Below, piece by piece: positions 5,030 to 21,865 of a DNA stretch of 57,671 bases. The stretch is from Betaproteobacteria bacterium. Lineage in GTDB: Bacteria; Pseudomonadota; Gammaproteobacteria; Burkholderiales; JAHFQX01. Both the position numbers and the translations under genes were made by a program. Where the stretch lies: contig JAHFQX010000016.1 of assembly GCA_023259135.1 (NCBI GenBank), positions 1 to 57,671 of the forward strand. Direction: 5' to 3'. The notes beneath the pieces were generated by a model. The model was given only the letters and a program-made list of their open reading frames with translations, was not told where the DNA came from and did not search any database. Numbering within the stretch: position 1 is the first letter of the stretch; every line of letters starts with the position of its first letter.

Positions 5030-8000
5030 CTATTGCGGCGGGGTTTTGAAGGGCCGCAAAGCGAGCGGGACGGGAACCCGCCCATCCCGAGCGCCGTTTG
5101 CCGTGGGCGCTTGCCGCTCGATCCGGCCGGCGCCGATGCCGCTCGCTCTTTCCAATTCTTCAGCAATGGCCGCCGCCCGGCCCTCGGCCAGATCCGTCAA
5201 TTCCTTTTCCGGCAAGCGAGCGCTCTCCGCCAAGCGGTCAAACAGGGCCTTGTAATACTCCACATCGGGACTCGCTTGGCCCATCGCCCCCAGCAAGGGA
5301 TTGACCGGGGTCACCGGCCTTCCATACCGTTGCTCCAATTCTTTGCGGAAACTTTCCAACTGCCGGTCCGACGCGGCCTCCACGAATAACAGATCCAAAA
5401 TTCGCTGGGTTCGAGCATTGCCGAAATCCAAGGGCTCGGGCTCTTCCCCCGCCATCGTCTGGCGTCCCATACGGCGCGTGACTTCCCGGAGCAATTGCCG
5501 GGACTTCAATTCTTCCCCGTCGGCCGCGGCATCGTAACGACCCTGCACCAGCAACTGCAATGACGGCCGCTGGCGCAGCGCTTCGGCGATTTTTTTCAGC
5601 TTCTCCCGCTCCGGCGGCAGAAAGGCGCCGCTCCCCGCCTCGAAATCCACGCTCTCCAAGCCCTCCCCCCCGCTCCCGAACAGCCTCCCCAAAGCCCGGA
5701 ACGGCGCGGTCACGATTTGAGTGAGGAAATTCCCCAGCGCCCGGCCGATCAAATGCCCATAACTAAACTCGGGATGGTTCAAGTCCCCCCGGACCGGCAA
5801 GCCGATATCGATACGGCCGTCGGCATCCTTGAGCAGCGCCACCGCCAGTTCCAAAGGCAATTGCAGGGCGCCGGGGCTTTCCACCCGCTCCCCCAAAGTG
5901 AGCTGATCCAGAATAATGCGGTTGTCTCCCACCAGCCGGCCCTGCTCGATCTGGTAGCGAAGCTCCAAGGACATCTTTCCGGAAGTCACGCCGTAGCCGA
6001 GAAATTTCCCGGAGTAGGGACTAAGGTGGGTCAACTCCAGATTGCGGAAGGTCATGGCCAGATCAGCGTGATCCTTGGGACGGCGGACGCTGATGCCCCC
6101 CTCGATCCGGGCAAAACCGTATTCATCCACCTGCCCTTCCAATTTTCCCTGGGCGCCGGGACCGGCAGCGGTACCGAGGCCCACCACCACCCCGCCCAGA
6201 CCATGAATCCGGCTTTTGAACTGAGGACGCAGGCTCAAATCCGCGAATTCCAACACACCGCCGTTTACCCAGAGCCGCCCCAGCTTGAAAGCAAAAGATT
6301 CGACCCCGGAGTTTTCGGTTGCGGCCGCCGAGGGTTTCTCGGCATCCCGATTTTGCGCTGCCCCCGGGACCCATACCCGTTTCAGATTCGTGCCGCCATC
6401 CGCGAAAATCACCAGCTTCCCGAAAGGTTTCTCAAGACGGATTTCATCCACTTCCAGCCGATCCGGATTCAGGCTCAAGCGCAAAACGGGAGCGTCGAGC
6501 CCGTCCCACCCCAGCAACGGCTCCCGATTCGCCGATTCGAGCAAGGATAGGACCTCCACCCGTACCCCTCCGTCATAAACCCAAGCCGGACCGCCCTTGC
6601 CGGCGCCATACTCCAGCCGGCCGCGTAGACTGACCGTTCCGGAGGCGATGGACAGTTTCGTATAGCGGGCCAAATAGGGTTGCAGCGGCAGCAGGGAAAA
6701 ACGCTCCAATCCGACTTGCGCTTCCGCTCGCCGCTTCCAGGGATCGGCCTTGCCGCGGGCCACCAGCCGGCCGCCCGCTTCCGCCTCGGCTCGCAGATGA
6801 AAAGCCGCCGGCTTTCCGGGAACCGTTGAAAGCCCTTGCGCCGTGAAATTCAAGCCGGAAACCGCCAACAGGGGAGCGTTCGATAGCCGCCGATCCACCC
6901 AGCGCCCGCGAAAGCCGGCCAGTTCCACCGCCTCCGCCTCCACCGCCCACGACGGGGCATCGCTCTTCGGCGCGGGAGCTTTTTGGGGGCCGCCGGCTCC
7001 GGCCAACGCCAGCCAGTTCCATCGCCCTTGGGCATCGGCGGACAGCAGCGCCTCGCCGCCCCGCAACCGCAGGGATTCCAGGGCGATCCGCCGTTGCGGA
7101 AATTCCAGCCTCCCGCCGCCAAACGCCGCCTCCTCGCCCCGGAGCAAGGACTGCCCGCGGGCTTCGACAATCCACGGCCCCCAAGCCCCTTCCAAGCCGC
7201 CCACGGCGTATTGGGATTCACCCCCGCCGAGCTTGGCCGAAGCCGAAAATCCCGCCCGCAGGTTTTCCAAGCTTGCCGTCAGCGCCCGGCCGACATCCCG
7301 ATACTCGACGCCCCAGCCGTCGAATTCCACGGCTTGGGCGCCGATATGCCACTCAGGCGCCTGCCTGGAGGGCCGCGATCCGGCGGCGGTCTTCCCATCC
7401 CGCGGCGCGAGAGCAAGCAGCCCGGACCAATCCAAGCTCCCATCCGGGCCGCGCTCCGCCTTCAAGCGCCCGCCGGAAAAGGACAGGCGGCCGATGTCCA
7501 GCCTACGGCGGACAAGATCGAAGCTGCCCTCCCGCAGCCTCGCGGTCTTCAGCCGCAGCAAGGGCTCGGCTTGCCCAGGCAGCCCCAGCGTCAACCCCGA
7601 CAACGCCAAATGGAGCCCCCGCAGGCCAAAATCCGCCTTGCCGCTCCGATAGGCAAAGCGATAGCGGGCCTCGGCGCTCAATACGCCCGCCGGCTGGGCC
7701 AAGTTGAGGCCATCGCGGAAAAAACTCCACAAGGTGGCAACGCGGACATGGCCGAAGCTCAACGTTCCCTCCGACACGATGGGCTGGAGCCCGAGGCTCC
7801 CCTTCCAACTCAAGGTCTCCCCAGCCTCGGTCTTGGCCGCCACCGAATAAGCGCCTAGCCGGTCGGGCAGCATCGCCAACTCTCGGAGCCGGATGTCCAC
7901 CGACTGGACTTGCAACCGGGCGGGCTTGCCTTGCAAATCGGCCAAGTCCACCGTCCCCGCGCCGACCGTCACGTTGCGAAACAATAAGGGGGGCGGCGGC

Positions 8001-8416
8001 GAGCCATCCTCGCCCCAATGCAGGTCATGGGCAAGACGGGCCAGATTCAAGCGACCACGGGAGTCAATCGTCACATTCAGCCGCGGGGCATCCAAACGAA
8101 TCCCGGAAAAAACCCAAGCCCGGCGGACCAGGCTCCCCCATTCGAAATCCGCCACCAAGCTCTTGAAAGCCAGGATGGGGCTCCCGTCGGACTCGCGAAA
8201 ATTCAGCCCCCGCACCTCGGCCCGCAACAAGAACGGGTTGAAGGTCAGTTCCTCCAGCGTCAGGCGACGGCCCAATTGCTCCGAGGCATAGCTCTCGGCA
8301 ACGCTTTTCAGCAGAGGCGGCAGAATCAGGGAACCGGTCAGCCCATAAAGCGCTACCGCCCCGATCAGGCCGGCGGCCACAAGGCGGAAGCGGCGAGTGC
8401 GGAGAAACCGCGACAT
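5030..8416 (-). CDS. DUF748-domain AsmA-like protein
   Basis: A 1128-residue protein with one N-terminal membrane anchor (about residues 10-35) and a very long periplasmic part rich in alternating beta strands, as in the AsmA/TamB/YhdP lipid-transfer-like superfamily. Typical DUF748 features are the opening LTLEELTFNPFLLRAEVRGL, repeated strand-turn units of the type VRGL and LRGRLEYG, and the late segment GKMSLELRYQIEQGRLVGDNRI. The C-terminal 200 residues include a helical region resembling an OmpA-like end (SLQLLVQGRYD). Members are linked to the outer membrane, but a function for this one is not established. It is a single-gene unit convergent with the gene at 4459. Confidence 0.85.
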   Translation of the reverse strand: MSRFLRTRRFRLVAAGLIGAVALYGLTGSLILPPLLKSVAESYASEQLGRRLTLEELTFNPFLLRAEVRGLNFRESDGSPILAFKSLVADFEWGSLVRRAWVFSGIRLDAPRLNVTIDSRGRLNLARLAHDLHWGEDGSPPPPLLFRNVTVGAGTVDLADLQGKPARLQVQSVDIRLRELAMLPDRLGAYSVAAKTEAGETLSWKGSLGLQPIVSEGTLSFGHVRVATLWSFFRDGLNLAQPAGVLSAEARYRFAYRSGKADFGLRGLHLALSGLTLGLPGQAEPLLRLKTARLREGSFDLVRRRLDIGRLSFSGGRLKAERGPDGSLDWSGLLALAPRDGKTAAGSRPSRQAPEWHIGAQAVEFDGWGVEYRDVGRALTASLENLRAGFSASAKLGGGESQYAVGGLEGAWGPWIVEARGQSLLRGEEAAFGGGRLEFPQRRIALESLRLRGGEALLSADAQGRWNWLALAGAGGPQKAPAPKSDAPSWAVEAEAVELAGFRGRWVDRRLSNAPLLAVSGLNFTAQGLSTVPGKPAAFHLRAEAEAGGRLVARGKADPWKRRAEAQVGLERFSLLPLQPYLARYTKLSIASGTVSLRGRLEYGAGKGGPAWVYDGGVRVEVLSLLESANREPLLGWDGLDAPVLRLSLNPDRLEVDEIRLEKPFGKLVIFADGGTNLKRVWVPGAAQNRDAEKPSAAATENSGVESFAFKLGRLWVNGGVLEFADLSLRPQFKSRIHGLGGVVVGLGTAAGPGAQGKLEGQVDEYGFARIEGGISVRRPKDHADLAMTFRNLELTHLSPYSGKFLGYGVTSGKMSLELRYQIEQGRLVGDNRIILDQLTLGERVESPGALQLPLELAVALLKDADGRIDIGLPVRGDLNHPEFSYGHLIGRALGNFLTQIVTAPFRALGRLFGSGGEGLESVDFEAGSGAFLPPEREKLKKIAEALRQRPSLQLLVQGRYDAAADGEELKSRQLLREVTRRMGRQTMAGEEPEPLDFGNARTQRILDLLFVEAASDRQLESFRKELEQRYGRPVTPVNPLLGAMGQASPDVEYYKALFDRLAESARLPEKELTDLAEGRAAAIAEELERASGIGAGRIERQAPTANGARDGRVPVPLALRPFKTPPQ

Positions 8417-8507
8417 CGGAGAACCTTTCCGGAAAACCTCGAAGTCGGCAAGTTTAGGCCGAGCCTATCCCGGCGGCAAAAAAATCGAAACGCGCCGGCT
8501 TTTTTAC

Positions 8508-8521
8508 TTGACCTGGGTTAA
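8508..8521 (+). promoter_or_regulatory. FNR/DNR-like operator of the hemerythrin operon
   Basis: TTGAC-CTGG-GTTAA matches an FNR/CRP-family palindrome in 9 of 10 defined positions. A possible -10 (TAAGGT, 8545-8550) is spaced as for a class II activated promoter, with start near 8556. A perfect 7-bp inverted repeat (8526-8532 / 8536-8542) lies between box and -10. The site suggests control by oxygen or nitric oxide; this is inference. Confidence 0.45.
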
Positions 8522-8582
8522 GGGCGGGACCGCGCCGGTCCCGTTAAGGTTGCGGCGTCATGTCACTTGCCGGAGCCGCCCC

Positions 8583-9038
8583 ATGCACACTACCGTCACC
8601 GCCCGTCTAACGGCCCATCACCGCCACTGCGACGATTTACTCGCCGAGGCGGAACGGGCCGCCAAGCAGAATTGGGAGCGCTGCACCGAGCGCTTCAAGA
8701 CATTTCGCGATTCCCTGGAAACCCACTTGCAGGCCGAGGAGCAGCAGTTGTTTCCCGCCGTCGAGCCTGTCCTGAGCCCGGTCGAAGGGCCGACTCTTTC
8801 TACCGGCGGCCCGACCAGCGTGATGCGCGCCGAACACGAGGACATGCGGGGATTGCTGCGCCTCCTGGAGGGCTCGATCGAAGCCGCCGACGCGGAGGGC
8901 TTTCAGGGTCTGGTGGAAACCCTGTTCATCCTCATGCAGCAACACAACATGAAGGAAGAAAACGTCCTCTATCCACTGTGCGACCGCATCCTGCAAGGCT
9001 CCCGCTCGATGCTGGCGGATACCCTGAAACTGCCGTGA
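8583..9038 (+). CDS. Hemerythrin HHE cation-binding domain protein
   Basis: A 151-residue four-helix-bundle protein expected to bind a di-iron centre through His, Glu and Asp side chains. Visible ligand motifs are HHRHCD (about residue 12), HLQAEEQQLFP (about 48-58), EHEDM (about 83) and QHNMKEENVLYP (about 121-132), all typical of the HHE family used in oxygen/NO sensing or iron-sulfur repair. The start at 8583 fits the first family residues; the frame remains open upstream but without homology. A short stretch reading SPVEG (about residues 64-68) comes from a dispersed repeat inserted between helices 2 and 3. The stop overlaps the next start, so translation is coupled. Confidence 0.88.
   Translation: MHTTVTARLTAHHRHCDDLLAEAERAAKQNWERCTERFKTFRDSLETHLQAEEQQLFPAVEPVLSPVEGPTLSTGGPTSVMRAEHEDMRGLLRLLEGSIEAADAEGFQGLVETLFILMQQHNMKEENVLYPLCDRILQGSRSMLADTLKLP
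8761..8790 (+). repeat. Dispersed short repeat embedded in the hemerythrin gene
   Basis: About 30 bases containing CCTGTCCTGAGC and GGTCGAAGGGC. Elements with this core (read in the other frames as FDRAQDR or STGLRTGS) are common intergenic repeats in many proteobacterial genomes. Here it lies in frame within a gene. A related variant occurs at 25724-25755. Confidence 0.6.
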
Positions 9039-9262
9039 CTACTCCCCCCAAGATCATCGACGCCCTGTTCCTGGAGCCGCCGGAACCCTTGGTGCGGGCG
9101 CTGGAGGCCATCGATACCCTGCAACCGGGAGAGGAATTGCTGTTCATCGTCGGCCGGGAGCCGTTTCCCTTGTACAACATCCTCGACCAAGCGGGCCTGC
9201 TGCGGGAAACCGAAGTGCGGAAAGACGGGGCCTATCAAGTGCGGATCCGCGCTCCTGGGTGA
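9035..9262 (+). CDS. DUF2249 domain protein
   Basis: A 75-residue single-domain protein of the DUF2249 family, which has a TusA-like alpha/beta fold. The recognisable pattern is IIDALFLEPPEPLVRALEAI, then PGEELLF, REPFPLYNIL and a final beta strand YQVRIR. The start is GTG at 9035, overlapping the hemerythrin stop by four bases (GTGA), and the stop overlaps the next ATG, giving a tightly coupled three-gene unit. DUF2249 proteins frequently accompany hemerythrins and NO or denitrification genes; the biochemical role is unknown. Confidence 0.82.
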   Translation: MTTPPKIIDALFLEPPEPLVRALEAIDTLQPGEELLFIVGREPFPLYNILDQAGLLRETEVRKDGAYQVRIRAPG

Positions 9263-10587
9263 TGGCCGACGGTCTCGCGTTCCATCAAGCTCCGCCCCTG
9301 TCGGCACCGCTGCGGTTTTTCCTGACCGCGCCGTGGTTCGGCTTGGCGGCGGCCGCCGTGCTAGCTTGGGGCGGGCCGGCGGCACTGGCTTCGCGCTGGA
9401 CTCCGGCCACCTTGGCCGCCACCCACCTCCTGACTCTGGGCATGCTGTCCATGACCATGGTGGGGGCCTTGATCCAACTGCTGTCGGTGGTGGCCGGAGC
9501 ACCGCTGCGCCATCCCCACCGAGTAGCGGGAATCGTCCATGTCTGCCTGACCCTGGGAACGGCGTTGCTGGCGACGGGTTTCCTCGGCTTTCCGCTCCTG
9601 CTGACGGCGGCCCTGCCGTTACTGGTGACCGCTTTCGCGGTGCTGATCGTTAGCGCCGCCCAGAGCCTGTGGACCTCTTCCGCCAGCGGGCCGACGCCCG
9701 CCGCCATCGGCCTGAGCCTGTTCGCCCTGGCGGTGACCGTGGGATTCGGCCTGCTGCTCGGCCTCGCTTATTCGGGCCATCTGCCCGCCTCCCAGCGGTG
9801 GCTGGCGGACCTGCACCCGACCTGGGGCATGGTGGGATGGATCGGCATCCTGGCGGCGGGGGTGAGCTATCAAGTGGTTCCCATGTTCCAAATGACTCCG
9901 CCCTATCCCCCTCGCTTGACCCGCTGGCTGGCTCCGGGGCTACTCACCGCCCTGGCGGGGCTTTCGGCGGCGGCTCCATTCGCCGCGGAGGGCCTATCCC
10001 TGCCCTTCGGTTTGGCCGGCGCGGCCGTTGCCGCCGGGTTGGTGCTTTATGGGGCCACCACTTTGGCGCTGCAACACCGCCGCCGGCGCAGCCGGAGCAA
10101 CCCGCAATTCGCCTTTTTCCGCATCGGCATGGCCAGCCTGCTGGGGGCCGGCGGCTTTTGGGCAACGGCTCAAGCTTTCCCCAATCTCGGCCAGCGGCCC
10201 GAATATCCGTTGCTGCTGGGAGTGTTGATGCTGGGAGGCTTCGCCCTGTCGCTGGTGATCGGCATGCTCTACAAGATCGTGCCGTTCCTGGTATGGCTGC
10301 ATTTGCGGCAGCGCGCTCCCAAGTTGGCGCGCTTGCTGCCGACTTTGGAACGCATCCTTCCCGAAGCCCGGGGCAGGATCAACGTTCGGGCCCATCTGGC
10401 GACTTTGATAACCGCTCTGGGGGCGGCGATGATGCCAAGCTTGGTCTATCTGGCCAGCCTGGCCCTGGCGGCGGCGTCGGTCTGGCTGGGGATTTCCCTG
10501 GCGCAAGCGGCACGCACGCTCCACAGCGCCACGCCACCCAATGCCGGCAAGGTCAAGGATGCCGGGGAGCCATCAGCGCCAGGTTGA
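9262..10587 (+). CDS. Polytopic membrane protein, possibly NnrS/heme-copper-oxidase-like
   Basis: A 441-residue inner-membrane protein with about twelve hydrophobic helices. Notable features are HLLTLGMLSMTMVGALIQLL near residue 55, an AGIVHVCL helix, GWIGILAAGVSYQVVPMFQ and GMLYKIVPFLVWLHLR. Conserved-looking His residues at helix ends (THLL, IVHV, LYKIVPFLVWLH) resemble the pattern of NnrS-like or oxidase subunit I-like proteins encoded beside hemerythrin and DUF2249 in denitrifiers. The exact family is uncertain. The start at 9262 (ATGA overlap) is preferred over GTG at 9259. The 3' end overlaps the convergent radical SAM gene by 35 bases. Confidence 0.75.
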   Translation: MADGLAFHQAPPLSAPLRFFLTAPWFGLAAAAVLAWGGPAALASRWTPATLAATHLLTLGMLSMTMVGALIQLLSVVAGAPLRHPHRVAGIVHVCLTLGTALLATGFLGFPLLLTAALPLLVTAFAVLIVSAAQSLWTSSASGPTPAAIGLSLFALAVTVGFGLLLGLAYSGHLPASQRWLADLHPTWGMVGWIGILAAGVSYQVVPMFQMTPPYPPRLTRWLAPGLLTALAGLSAAAPFAAEGLSLPFGLAGAAVAAGLVLYGATTLALQHRRRRSRSNPQFAFFRIGMASLLGAGGFWATAQAFPNLGQRPEYPLLLGVLMLGGFALSLVIGMLYKIVPFLVWLHLRQRAPKLARLLPTLERILPEARGRINVRAHLATLITALGAAMMPSLVYLASLALAAASVWLGISLAQAARTLHSATPPNAGKVKDAGEPSAPG

Positions 10588-12440: not shown

Positions 12441-13259
12441 TCAACCCTCCACGGCCGAGGCCGAGGCAATAAGCCGTCCGGCCTCCGGAAACCAGGCCAA
12501 TTTGTCCCGCAGCCGCACCACTTCTCCCACGATCACCAAAGTAGGCGGCTTGATCCCGGCTGCCGCGGCGAGTTCCGGTAAATCCGCCAAGGTCCCGCTT
12601 ACCACCCGCTGCCGCGGGGTGGTGCCTTCCTGCACGATGGCCGCCGGAGTCGTCGCTGGCAGGTCGTGGGCCACCAACTCCTTGCACAAGCGGGCCAAGC
12701 CCTTGAGGCCCATGTAGACCACCACCGTCTGGCCCGGCCGGGCCAGCGTCCGCCAATCCAGATCGCCGTCGCCGTCCTTCAGGTGGCCGGTGACGAACAC
12801 GCAGGAATGGGCATGGTCCCGATGGGTCAAGGGAATACCGGCATAGGCCGCCACCCCGTTGGCGGCGGTGATGCCGGGGACGACCTGGAAAGGAATCCGC
12901 CGCGCCGCCAGGAACTCCGCCTCCTCCCCGCCTCGCCCAAACACGAAAGGATCGCCGCCCTTGAGCCGCACCACGGTCTTGCCCCTCAGCGCCAAGGTCG
13001 CCAGCAATTGGTTGATGGCCGCCTGGGGCAGGCTATGCCGGTCGCATTGCTTGCCGACATAGACCTTTTCCGTGCGAGCAGGGATCAAGGCCACGACTTC
13101 GGCGGACACCAAGTAGTCATAGAGCACCGCATCGGCGCCCTGGATCGCCCGCAGCGCCTTGAGAGTCAGCAGCTCCGGATCCCCCGGCCCGGCCCCCACC
13201 AGGTAAACCTCTCCGAGCGGCTCCTTCCTGAGACTAAGCAAAACTCCAGTTCCTTCCAC
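12441..13259 (-). CDS. nirE: Uroporphyrinogen-III C-methyltransferase (NirE/CobA)
   Basis: A 272-residue SAM-dependent methyltransferase that methylates uroporphyrinogen III at C2 and C7 to give precorrin-2, the first committed step toward siroheme and heme d1. It shows [20 protein letters not shown] (about residues 18-37), [37 protein letters not shown] and GIPLTHRDH, all diagnostic of SUMT. It lacks the CysG dehydrogenase/ferrochelatase domain. Start is GTG at 13259 with GGAGG eight bases upstream. Its position divergent from nirS identifies it as the dedicated heme d1 enzyme NirE. Confidence 0.9.
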
Positions 13260-13349: not shown

Positions 13350-13363
13350 TTGATGTACATCAA
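13350..13363. promoter_or_regulatory. FNR/DNR box upstream of the cupredoxin remnant and nirE
   Basis: A perfect palindrome TTGAT-GTAC-ATCAA, the consensus for the CRP/FNR family regulators FNR, DNR and NnrR. Rightward, a -10-like GACAAT (13384-13389) gives class II spacing to the small cupredoxin-like frame at 13445. Leftward, it lies 91 bases from the nirE start. It therefore could activate either or both directions under low oxygen with nitrogen oxides. Confidence 0.75.
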
Positions 13364-13444
13364 AGAACACCATACTGCTTTGCGACAATCTGAAATCATT
13401 TGAATTTTACTTACTTCCGTTAACTCGACACAAAGGAGATTGCA

Positions 13445-13570
13445 ATGAAGAAGTCCGACCGGATGTTCCCGAGGGAGTCTTGGCAACGCACCTTCGACAA
13501 ACTCGGCACCTACCCCTATACTTGTGGGCCCCACCCTGAAATGACTGGCGTGGTTGAGGTCAGTAAGTAG
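13445..13570 (+). pseudogene. Cupredoxin C-terminal remnant (41 codons, own ribosome binding site)
   Basis: The 41-codon frame starts with ATG AAG AAG, six bases after a near-ideal ribosome binding site (AAAGGAG, 13432-13438). Its C-terminal half reads TFDKLGTYPYTCGPHPEMTG. This is the last beta hairpin of plastocyanin/amicyanin-type cupredoxins, with three of the four type 1 copper ligands (Cys27, His30, Met33). The rest of the barrel, including the first His ligand and the signal peptide, is missing. An internal deletion joining the original start to the 3' end would explain the strong SD and the MKK opening. An independent micro-protein cannot be excluded. It follows an FNR/DNR box and precedes nirS, so the parent gene may have encoded an electron donor to NirS. 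Confidence 0.7.
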
Positions 13571-13640: not shown

Positions 13641-13654
13641 TTGATACACATCAA
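13641..13654 (+). promoter_or_regulatory. FNR/DNR box of nirS
   Basis: TTGAT-ACAC-ATCAA has both conserved half-sites. A -10-like CACAAT (13677-13682) places the start near 13689, about 41 bases from the box centre, as expected for a class II activated promoter. The nirS ATG is about 65 bases further. Confidence 0.78.
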
Positions 13655-13746: not shown

Positions 13747-15483
<1,737 letters not shown>

Positions 15484-20318: not shown

Positions 20319-21865
20319 GGCTCTTTCCGGCGGCCTGCCTCGCCTGGGCCGCCTGCGCCGCCGCTGGCGCCGAACCGTTGCCGGCCGCCAAGCTCTATCT
20401 CCAGCACTGCGCTGCCTGCCACGGCGCCGACCGGCTGGGAGCCATGGGCCCCGCGCTGCTTCCCGAAAACCTGGAATCCACCCGGCTGCGCAAGCCCGGC
20501 GCGATCCGGGTCATCACCGAGGGACGGCCCGCCACCCAGATGCCGGCCTTCGGCGCCAGCCTGAGCGCCGAAGACATCCGCGGCCTCGCCGATTTCATCG
20601 CCACGCCGGTCACCCCGCGTCCCGCCTGGGACGAACTCGCCATCCGGGCTTCCCGCATCGCGCATGCCGCGCCCGGCTCGCTGCCCAGTCGGCCCCGCTT
20701 CCGGGCCGATCCCCTCAACCTGTTCGTGGTGGTGGAAGGCGGCGACCATCACGTCACCATTCTGGACGGCGACAAGCTGGAACCCATCCACCGCTTCCCG
20801 TCGCGCTTCGCCCTGCACGGCGGGCCGAAATTCACCCCCGACGGGCGCTATGTATTCTTCGCCTCGCGGGACGGCTGGGTCTCCAAGTTCGATCTCTACA
20901 ATCTGCAAACCGTGGCGGAGGTACGGGCCGGCATCAACACCCGCAACCTGGCGGTGTCCGGGGACGGCAAATGGGTGATGGTGGCGAACACGCTGCCCCC
21001 TACCCTGGTATTGCTGGACGCCGAGCTGAATCTGCTCAAGGTGCTGCCGGTCGCGGATCGCGAAGGCAAGCGCAGCTCCCGGGTATCGGCGGTCTACGAT
21101 GCCGCGCCCCGCAAGAGCTTCGTTGCCGCCATGAAGGACATCCCCGAAGTCTGGGAAATCAGCTACGACGAAAAAGCCGAGCCGATTCCCACGGGACTGA
21201 TTCACGATTTCCGATACCAGGAGGGCGCTTTCGTCCCCGGCCGCTTCAACCCCCGCCGGACCGTGCTGGACACCCCCCTGGACGATTTCTTCTTCACCCA
21301 GGACTACAACCAAGTCATCGGCGCTTCCCGGGAGGGTGGCGGACAGGTGGTGAACCTCGACGTGCGGCGCAAGATCGCCGATCTGGAGCTGCCCGGCCTG
21401 CCCCATCTGGGCTCCGGCATCACCTGGACCTGGCAGGGCCGGCCGGTGCTGGCCACCCCCAATCTGCAAGACGGCACGGTCAGCATCATCGACCTGCAAA
21501 GCTGGAAGACCGTGAAGCAGATCAAGACCCTGGGGCCGGGGTTTTTCATGCGCAGCCACGAGAACACCCGCTACGCCTGGGTGGACGCCATGCTGAGCCC
21601 CCACAAGGACACCCTGGAGATCATCGACAAGCAAACCCTGGAGATCGTCGCCCGGGTCACTCCCGTTCCCGGCAAGACCCTGGCCCACATCGAATTCACC
21701 CGGGACGGAAAATACGCCCTGGCCAGCCTATGGGAGGACGACGGCGCCCTCATCGTCTTCGACGCCGCTACCTTCAAGGAAGTCAAGCGCATCCCCATGC
21801 GCAAGCCGGTGGGCAAGTACAACGTCTACAACAAGATCACCCGCAGCGCCGGCACCAGCCATTGA
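20315..21865 (+). CDS. nirN: Dihydro-heme d1 dehydrogenase NirN
   Basis: A 516-residue periplasmic paralogue of NirS that introduces the acrylate double bond in the last step of heme d1 formation and hands the cofactor to NirS. It has a signal peptide ending near AAGA, the heme c motif CAACH (Cys32, Cys35, His36), and a d1-type propeller with the ligand His in RFALHGGPKFTPDGRY. The paired distal His motifs of NirS are replaced, as expected for NirN. Start is GTG at 20315, overlapping the nirJ stop (GTGA). It appears to be the last gene of the maturation unit. Confidence 0.93.
   Translation: MRLFPAACLAWAACAAAGAEPLPAAKLYLQHCAACHGADRLGAMGPALLPENLESTRLRKPGAIRVITEGRPATQMPAFGASLSAEDIRGLADFIATPVTPRPAWDELAIRASRIAHAAPGSLPSRPRFRADPLNLFVVVEGGDHHVTILDGDKLEPIHRFPSRFALHGGPKFTPDGRYVFFASRDGWVSKFDLYNLQTVAEVRAGINTRNLAVSGDGKWVMVANTLPPTLVLLDAELNLLKVLPVADREGKRSSRVSAVYDAAPRKSFVAAMKDIPEVWEISYDEKAEPIPTGLIHDFRYQEGAFVPGRFNPRRTVLDTPLDDFFFTQDYNQVIGASREGGGQVVNLDVRRKIADLELPGLPHLGSGITWTWQGRPVLATPNLQDGTVSIIDLQSWKTVKQIKTLGPGFFMRSHENTRYAWVDAMLSPHKDTLEIIDKQTLEIVARVTPVPGKTLAHIEFTRDGKYALASLWEDDGALIVFDAATFKEVKRIPMRKPVGKYNVYNKITRSAGTSH

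Follow-up and report, generated by a model that had tools for sequence, protein, structure and literature searches.

Results

A probable 41-codon gene relic beside nirS1

A short open reading frame between a cobA-like gene and nirS1 (13445-13570, + strand) was judged, with a probability of about 0.75, to be a gene relic, namely a chimera of the beginning of a lost nirS paralogue (nirS2) and the end of a cupredoxin gene that arose by an in-frame deletion in the nir locus. The window, by which the whole analysed stretch of 57,671 nt is meant, is one whole contig of a draft genome with 86 contigs and 99% completeness. The features of this part of the window were as follows.

12441..13259, - strand: cobA/nirE-like uroporphyrinogen-III C-methyltransferase on the left, divergent; the name is taken from its sequence and from its match beside nirS2 in relatives
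13350..13363, + strand: FNR-type box TTGATGTACATCAA, perfect match, before the relic frame
13433..13453, + strand: Shine-Dalgarno sequence and ATG AAG AAG, a retained start that most likely belonged to the lost nirS2 (Shine-Dalgarno AAAGGAGATTGCA; equivalent of nirS2 in genome G054, AGAGGAGATGGCC-ATG)
13445..13570, + strand: 41-codon frame, probable chimera from an in-frame deletion with the join at codons 3-4; the intact module lies between these ends in G054
13454..13570, + strand: 3' end of a cupredoxin gene, last 38 codons and stop (PF00127 match, family profile and alignment)
13641..13654, + strand: FNR-type box of nirS, TTGATACACATCAA, perfect match
13753..15483, + strand: nirS1, cytochrome cd1 nitrite reductase, intact (PF02239, E 1.8e-155)

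The frame translates to MKKSDRMFPRESWQRTFDKLGTYPYTCGPHPEMTGVVEVSK and has a strong Shine-Dalgarno sequence (AAAGGAGATTGCA-ATG). The upstream FNR-type box ends 81 nt before its ATG, with a weak -10 match (GACAAT) at 13384 in between. Only the two FNR-type boxes listed above were perfect in the 57.7-kb window, for which 0.72 sites with at most one mismatch were expected by chance. The initial annotation of a cupredoxin tail with a good ribosome binding site and an FNR-type box next to nirS was thus confirmed.

Downstream of nirS1, a nirC-type cytochrome c gene was followed by nirF. Further along the nir cluster, after nirJ, a distant cd1-like gene of the nirN type with a cytochrome c motif was found at 20381-21832. 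Elsewhere in the window, a frame at 8397-9038 was recognised by eye as hemerythrin-like; it adjoins an nnrS-like gene and carries an in-frame insert VLSPVEGPTLSTG near 8760-8795, which looks derived from a palindromic repeat CCTGAGCCCGGTCGAAGG.

Homology of the tail and the copper site

The PF00127 profile (plastocyanin/azurin family) matched residues 11-39 of the frame at columns 68-98 of 99 with an E value of 9e-5 and a score of 23.2 bits, above the cut-off of 21.2 bits. A profile built from the relatives of the tail's cupredoxin gave an E value of 5.6e-20 for the tail. At the DNA level, the similarity of the tail to the cupredoxin gene of G054 was 22.8 standard deviations above shuffled sequences, which excludes chance. 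Alignment with 23 full-length homologues showed that the homology of the frame begins at residue 4 and extends to the C-terminal end. Residue 3 is lysine in the frame and glutamate in 22 of the 23 homologues, so the join was placed at codons 3-4. The solved structures nearest to this cupredoxin family were amicyanins, the closest being 1id2. By profile and alignment, the part of the frame from residue 4 onwards makes up the C-terminal third of a cupredoxin of the amicyanin-like kind.

The residues C27, H30 and M33, which are invariant in the 23 homologues, form the C-x2-H-x2-M loop, and the frame retains all the invariant tail positions (F17, G21, Y25, C27, P29, H30, M33 and V39). Two changes at well conserved sites, R10 (G/D to R) and L20 (P to L), were seen in none of the homologues. 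Residues unique to one sequence numbered two in the window tail and between 0 and 10 in the intact homologues; this low decay of the tail fits a recent deletion and would equally fit a constrained peptide.

For a functional type-1 copper site, the C-terminal Cys-His-Met ligands are present in the 41-residue frame, while the N-terminal His ligand and a complete barrel are absent, since the PF00127 match covers columns 68-98 of 99 only and homology begins past the His-bearing region. No export signal was seen by eye in the frame either, as no hydrophobic stretch follows MKK and the sequence is that of the cupredoxin from residue 4. The initial description of a frame that ends in the Cys-x2-His-x2-Met loop and lacks the rest of the barrel therefore held.

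The short form in other genomes

Short forms of the cupredoxin family were searched for in genomes of the order (399) and of the class (369), none of which belonged to the same genus or family as the window's organism. Among the 51 genomes that carried the family, the short form occurred in the window's genome only and the other 50 kept the N-terminal part. A conserved small gene was rejected on this basis, and the micro-protein suggested in the initial annotation was not supported as a conserved one, the short form having no counterpart in any other genome searched.

The nirS2 module in relatives

A search of nirS loci from relatives, as had been proposed initially, did recover a full-length cupredoxin gene at the same position beside nirS, for example directly upstream of nirS in locus L005 of genome G054. 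The cupredoxin-family profile revealed more nirS loci with a cupredoxin gene nearby. In these relatives the order was nirS2, usually a NapC/NirT tetraheme gene (nirT, PF03264), a gene for an EB_dh haem protein (PF09459) and the cupredoxin gene last. nirS2 is a diverged nirS paralogue about 60-66% identical to the window nirS. A maximum-likelihood tree of 70 NirS sequences placed the nirS2 of the modules in a separate clade (support 100/100) and the window nirS as sister to the nirS1 of G054 (support 100/90).

Collinear nirS2, EB_dh and cupredoxin genes were seen in 18 genomes, at 19 loci. Six genomes (G054, G082, G388, G399, G402 and G403) had the module upstream of nirS1 on one contig, with the cupredoxin gene immediately before nirS1 in G054 and G403 and one gene intervening in the other four. 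The complete order in G054 was cobA (opposite strand), FNR box, nirS2, nirT, EB_dh, cupredoxin, FNR box and nirS1. The intact module thus has the same flanks as the window frame, with cobA and an FNR box on the left and an FNR box and nirS1 on the right, and the window cobA-like gene is 65% identical to the divergent gene adjoining nirS2 in G054. In G054, about 3.5 kb separate codon 4 of nirS2 from the matching cupredoxin codon.

The module was located at 3130-6800 of L137 (G054) and was collinear in L138-L144, L146-L149, L152-L154, L166-L168 and L173. It has the look of a dedicated route by which electrons would pass from quinol to one of the two NirS copies. In one module (L147 of G330, 6751-9874) the EB_dh gene was flanked by a nirT copy on each side. 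A NosR-like gene of about 610 aa with FMN-binding and 4Fe-4S domains, for which Pfam was checked in L128 only, was present between the cupredoxin gene and nirS1 in L099, L118, L127, L128, L138 and L145.

Absence of the module from the window and the genome

Neither other pieces nor moved fragments of the cupredoxin, EB_dh or nirT genes were found within the window. In the whole genome the EB_dh gene was absent and there was no second true nirS, the only matches being nirS itself and the distant nirN-like gene at 20381. The sole other PF00127 match (contig C13) was a different open frame of 200 aa and was dismissed as the source of the tail. A tetraheme homologue with 60% identity on contig C32 was likewise dismissed as a surviving nirT, as it lies outside any nir locus and its neighbours are genes for a multihaem cytochrome and for an outer-membrane-like protein.

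The C32 cluster was recorded separately. At 1684-5646 of L194, in the same genome, the NapC-like tetraheme gene adjoins a multihaem cytochrome gene (about ten CxxCH) and a gene for a 749-aa outer-membrane-like protein. The cluster resembles an extracellular electron pathway of the Mto/DmsE type, and from this resemblance the organism may exchange electrons with minerals.

Origin of the start codon

The initial annotation had regarded the start of the frame as the cupredoxin's own, and this was not supported by the relatives. The nirS2 genes often begin with MKKS, MKKN, MKKP, MRKS or MRR (the three MKK forms in 6 of 16), and MKK-like residues were found in none of 22 sampled cupredoxin starts. 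The distance from the FNR box to the nirS2 start was 74-96 nt in most relatives, a range that includes the 81 nt of the window frame, which begins MKKS. An FNR box close to the cupredoxin gene was seen in a single case, G131. Given the FNR spacing, the operon position and the MKKS start, the beginning of the 41-codon frame most likely came from nirS2, well ahead of the cupredoxin's own start.

Two other lines of comparison were given less weight. The cobA gene is divergent from nirS2 in nine loci; it was not taken as sole proof of a nirS2 flank, since in 27 of 104 loci its divergent neighbour is nirS1. The start region of G054 nirS2 was among the best DNA matches to that of the window (z of 6-7 against shuffles), and some nirS1 and EB_dh starts in other genomes matched it equally well. 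This similarity was strong against shuffled sequences and not against real gene starts, and was therefore used as support only. A short sequence overlap at the join was considered as the mechanism; the codons would permit 2-5 shared bases, and no claim was made.

Proposed deletion

The ancestral locus would have had the order cobA (- strand), FNR box, nirS2, nirT, EB_dh, amicyanin-like cupredoxin, FNR box and nirS1. A single in-frame deletion of about 3.5 kb would then have removed several genes and fused the first codons of nirS2, with its promoter, ribosome binding site and ATG AAG AA.., with the 38 codons at the 3' end of the cupredoxin gene, leaving nirS1 with its own FNR box. From the gene starts and the operon position of the cupredoxin gene in the relatives, the deletion probably took out several genes and not part of one. 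The initial proposal of a deletion relic was accordingly kept, on the homology from residue 4 and the intact gene in relatives, and its narrower form, an internal deletion within a single gene, was considered less likely.

The lost module was probably a second electron route running from quinol through NirT, EB_dh and cupredoxin to NirS2. The related suggestion that the frame is a relic of a NirS electron donor is plausible as to the role of the cupredoxin as a carrier, judged from its membership in a denitrification operon. If anoxic cells do make the 41-residue product, it would most likely be inert, because it would be cytoplasmic, could form no cupredoxin barrel and would be one copper ligand short.

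Alternative explanations

An internal deletion of the cupredoxin gene alone, in which the ATG AAG AAG, the ribosome binding site and the FNR box would be its own and about 60-65 codons would be lost, was considered unlikely. It has a parallel in G131, where a cupredoxin gene of the family immediately follows an FNR box and lies upstream of nirS1 but is not preceded by nirS2, an arrangement that counts against a start from nirS2; MKK is also a possible beginning of a secreted protein. However, the stretch read in G131 has no cobA flank and holds a NosR-like gene between the cupredoxin gene and nirS1, and in G054, the nearest nirS relative, the nirS2 operon ends with the cupredoxin gene. The sampled cupredoxin starts, with no MKK-like one among them and an FNR box near almost none, also argue against it.

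The same signals, a good ribosome binding site, an FNR box and an open frame, could belong to a frame that is functional in its own right, as a translated micro-protein or as a leader, for example in copper sensing by the partial loop or in tuning of nirS expression. The preserved invariant residues and a GC3 of 0.73, little under the 0.80 of nirS, would agree with this; the difference in GC3 is small and was dropped as a sign of decay. Such a function is nevertheless very improbable, as the short form was confined to one of the genomes searched, the frame has no N-terminal His ligand, no barrel and no signal peptide, residues 10 and 20 are altered at well conserved sites and nirS has an FNR box of its own. 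There is also only a very slight chance that the fused ends of a lost electron-transfer operon gave birth to a peptide gene, in which the retained FNR promoter would drive a cytoplasmic peptide of 41 residues that binds copper(I) through its exposed Cys-His-Met hairpin or acts as a nirS leader. An assembly artefact, or a deletion present in part of the population only, would be conceivable in a draft genome in which the window is itself a whole contig; it was held to be highly improbable, since the reading frame continues across the join, which lies within a contig of 57.7 kb, and a nearly complete genome contains neither the EB_dh gene nor a second nirS.

Discussion

Comparison with known systems

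Like cupredoxins of the amicyanin/plastocyanin type (PF00127), the last 38 residues of the window frame contain the Cys-x2-His-x2-Met loop and complete the domain at its C-terminal end. The first two thirds of such proteins, which include the N-terminal His ligand and the signal peptide, have no counterpart in the window. Nitrite reduction in Stutzerimonas strain ZoBell is described as dependent on the NirT tetraheme, and cytochromes or azurins/pseudoazurins are described as further carriers of electrons to Nir (PMC13086519). As in the nirST(B) clusters of Stutzerimonas described there, the module lost from the window pairs, in relatives, a cd1 nitrite reductase with a NapC/NirT tetraheme. In contrast to those clusters, nirT in the relatives is followed by EB_dh and cupredoxin genes and not by nirB, and the window keeps the cupredoxin tail alone. 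A literature search with the terms tried, which lay mostly outside subscription papers, found no report of a cluster of nirS, EB_dh and a copper protein (cupredoxin).

Two diverged nirS copies are known from betaproteobacteria. Dechloromonas aromatica RCB has nirS1 and nirS2, which are 59% identical and both transcribed (PMC6593283), and NirS1/2/3 clusters were described in Rhodocyclales (PMC7054561). The copies found here are similarly diverged, with clades about 60-66% identical; the nirS2 naming of those papers is not equated with ours. Unlike the double-nirS betaproteobacteria, G054 and five other genomes have both copies in one locus with the cupredoxin gene between, and the window has lost one of them.

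The frame shares with bacterial gene remnants produced by deletion the in-frame fusion of 5' and 3' ends, homology over a fragment only and an intact gene in relatives. It differs from the usual remnants in that it most likely combines the beginning of the first gene of an operon with the end of the last, so that the promoter and ribosome binding site were kept.

Significance

The relic by itself represents ordinary gene loss. It would record a former second cd1 nitrite reductase module with a tetraheme on the quinol side, a haem protein and a copper carrier. More generally, short frames with good ribosome binding sites near respiratory genes can be deletion scars. The better lead is the module of nirS2, nirT, EB_dh and cupredoxin in the relatives, which predicts a dedicated route to one of their two NirS copies.
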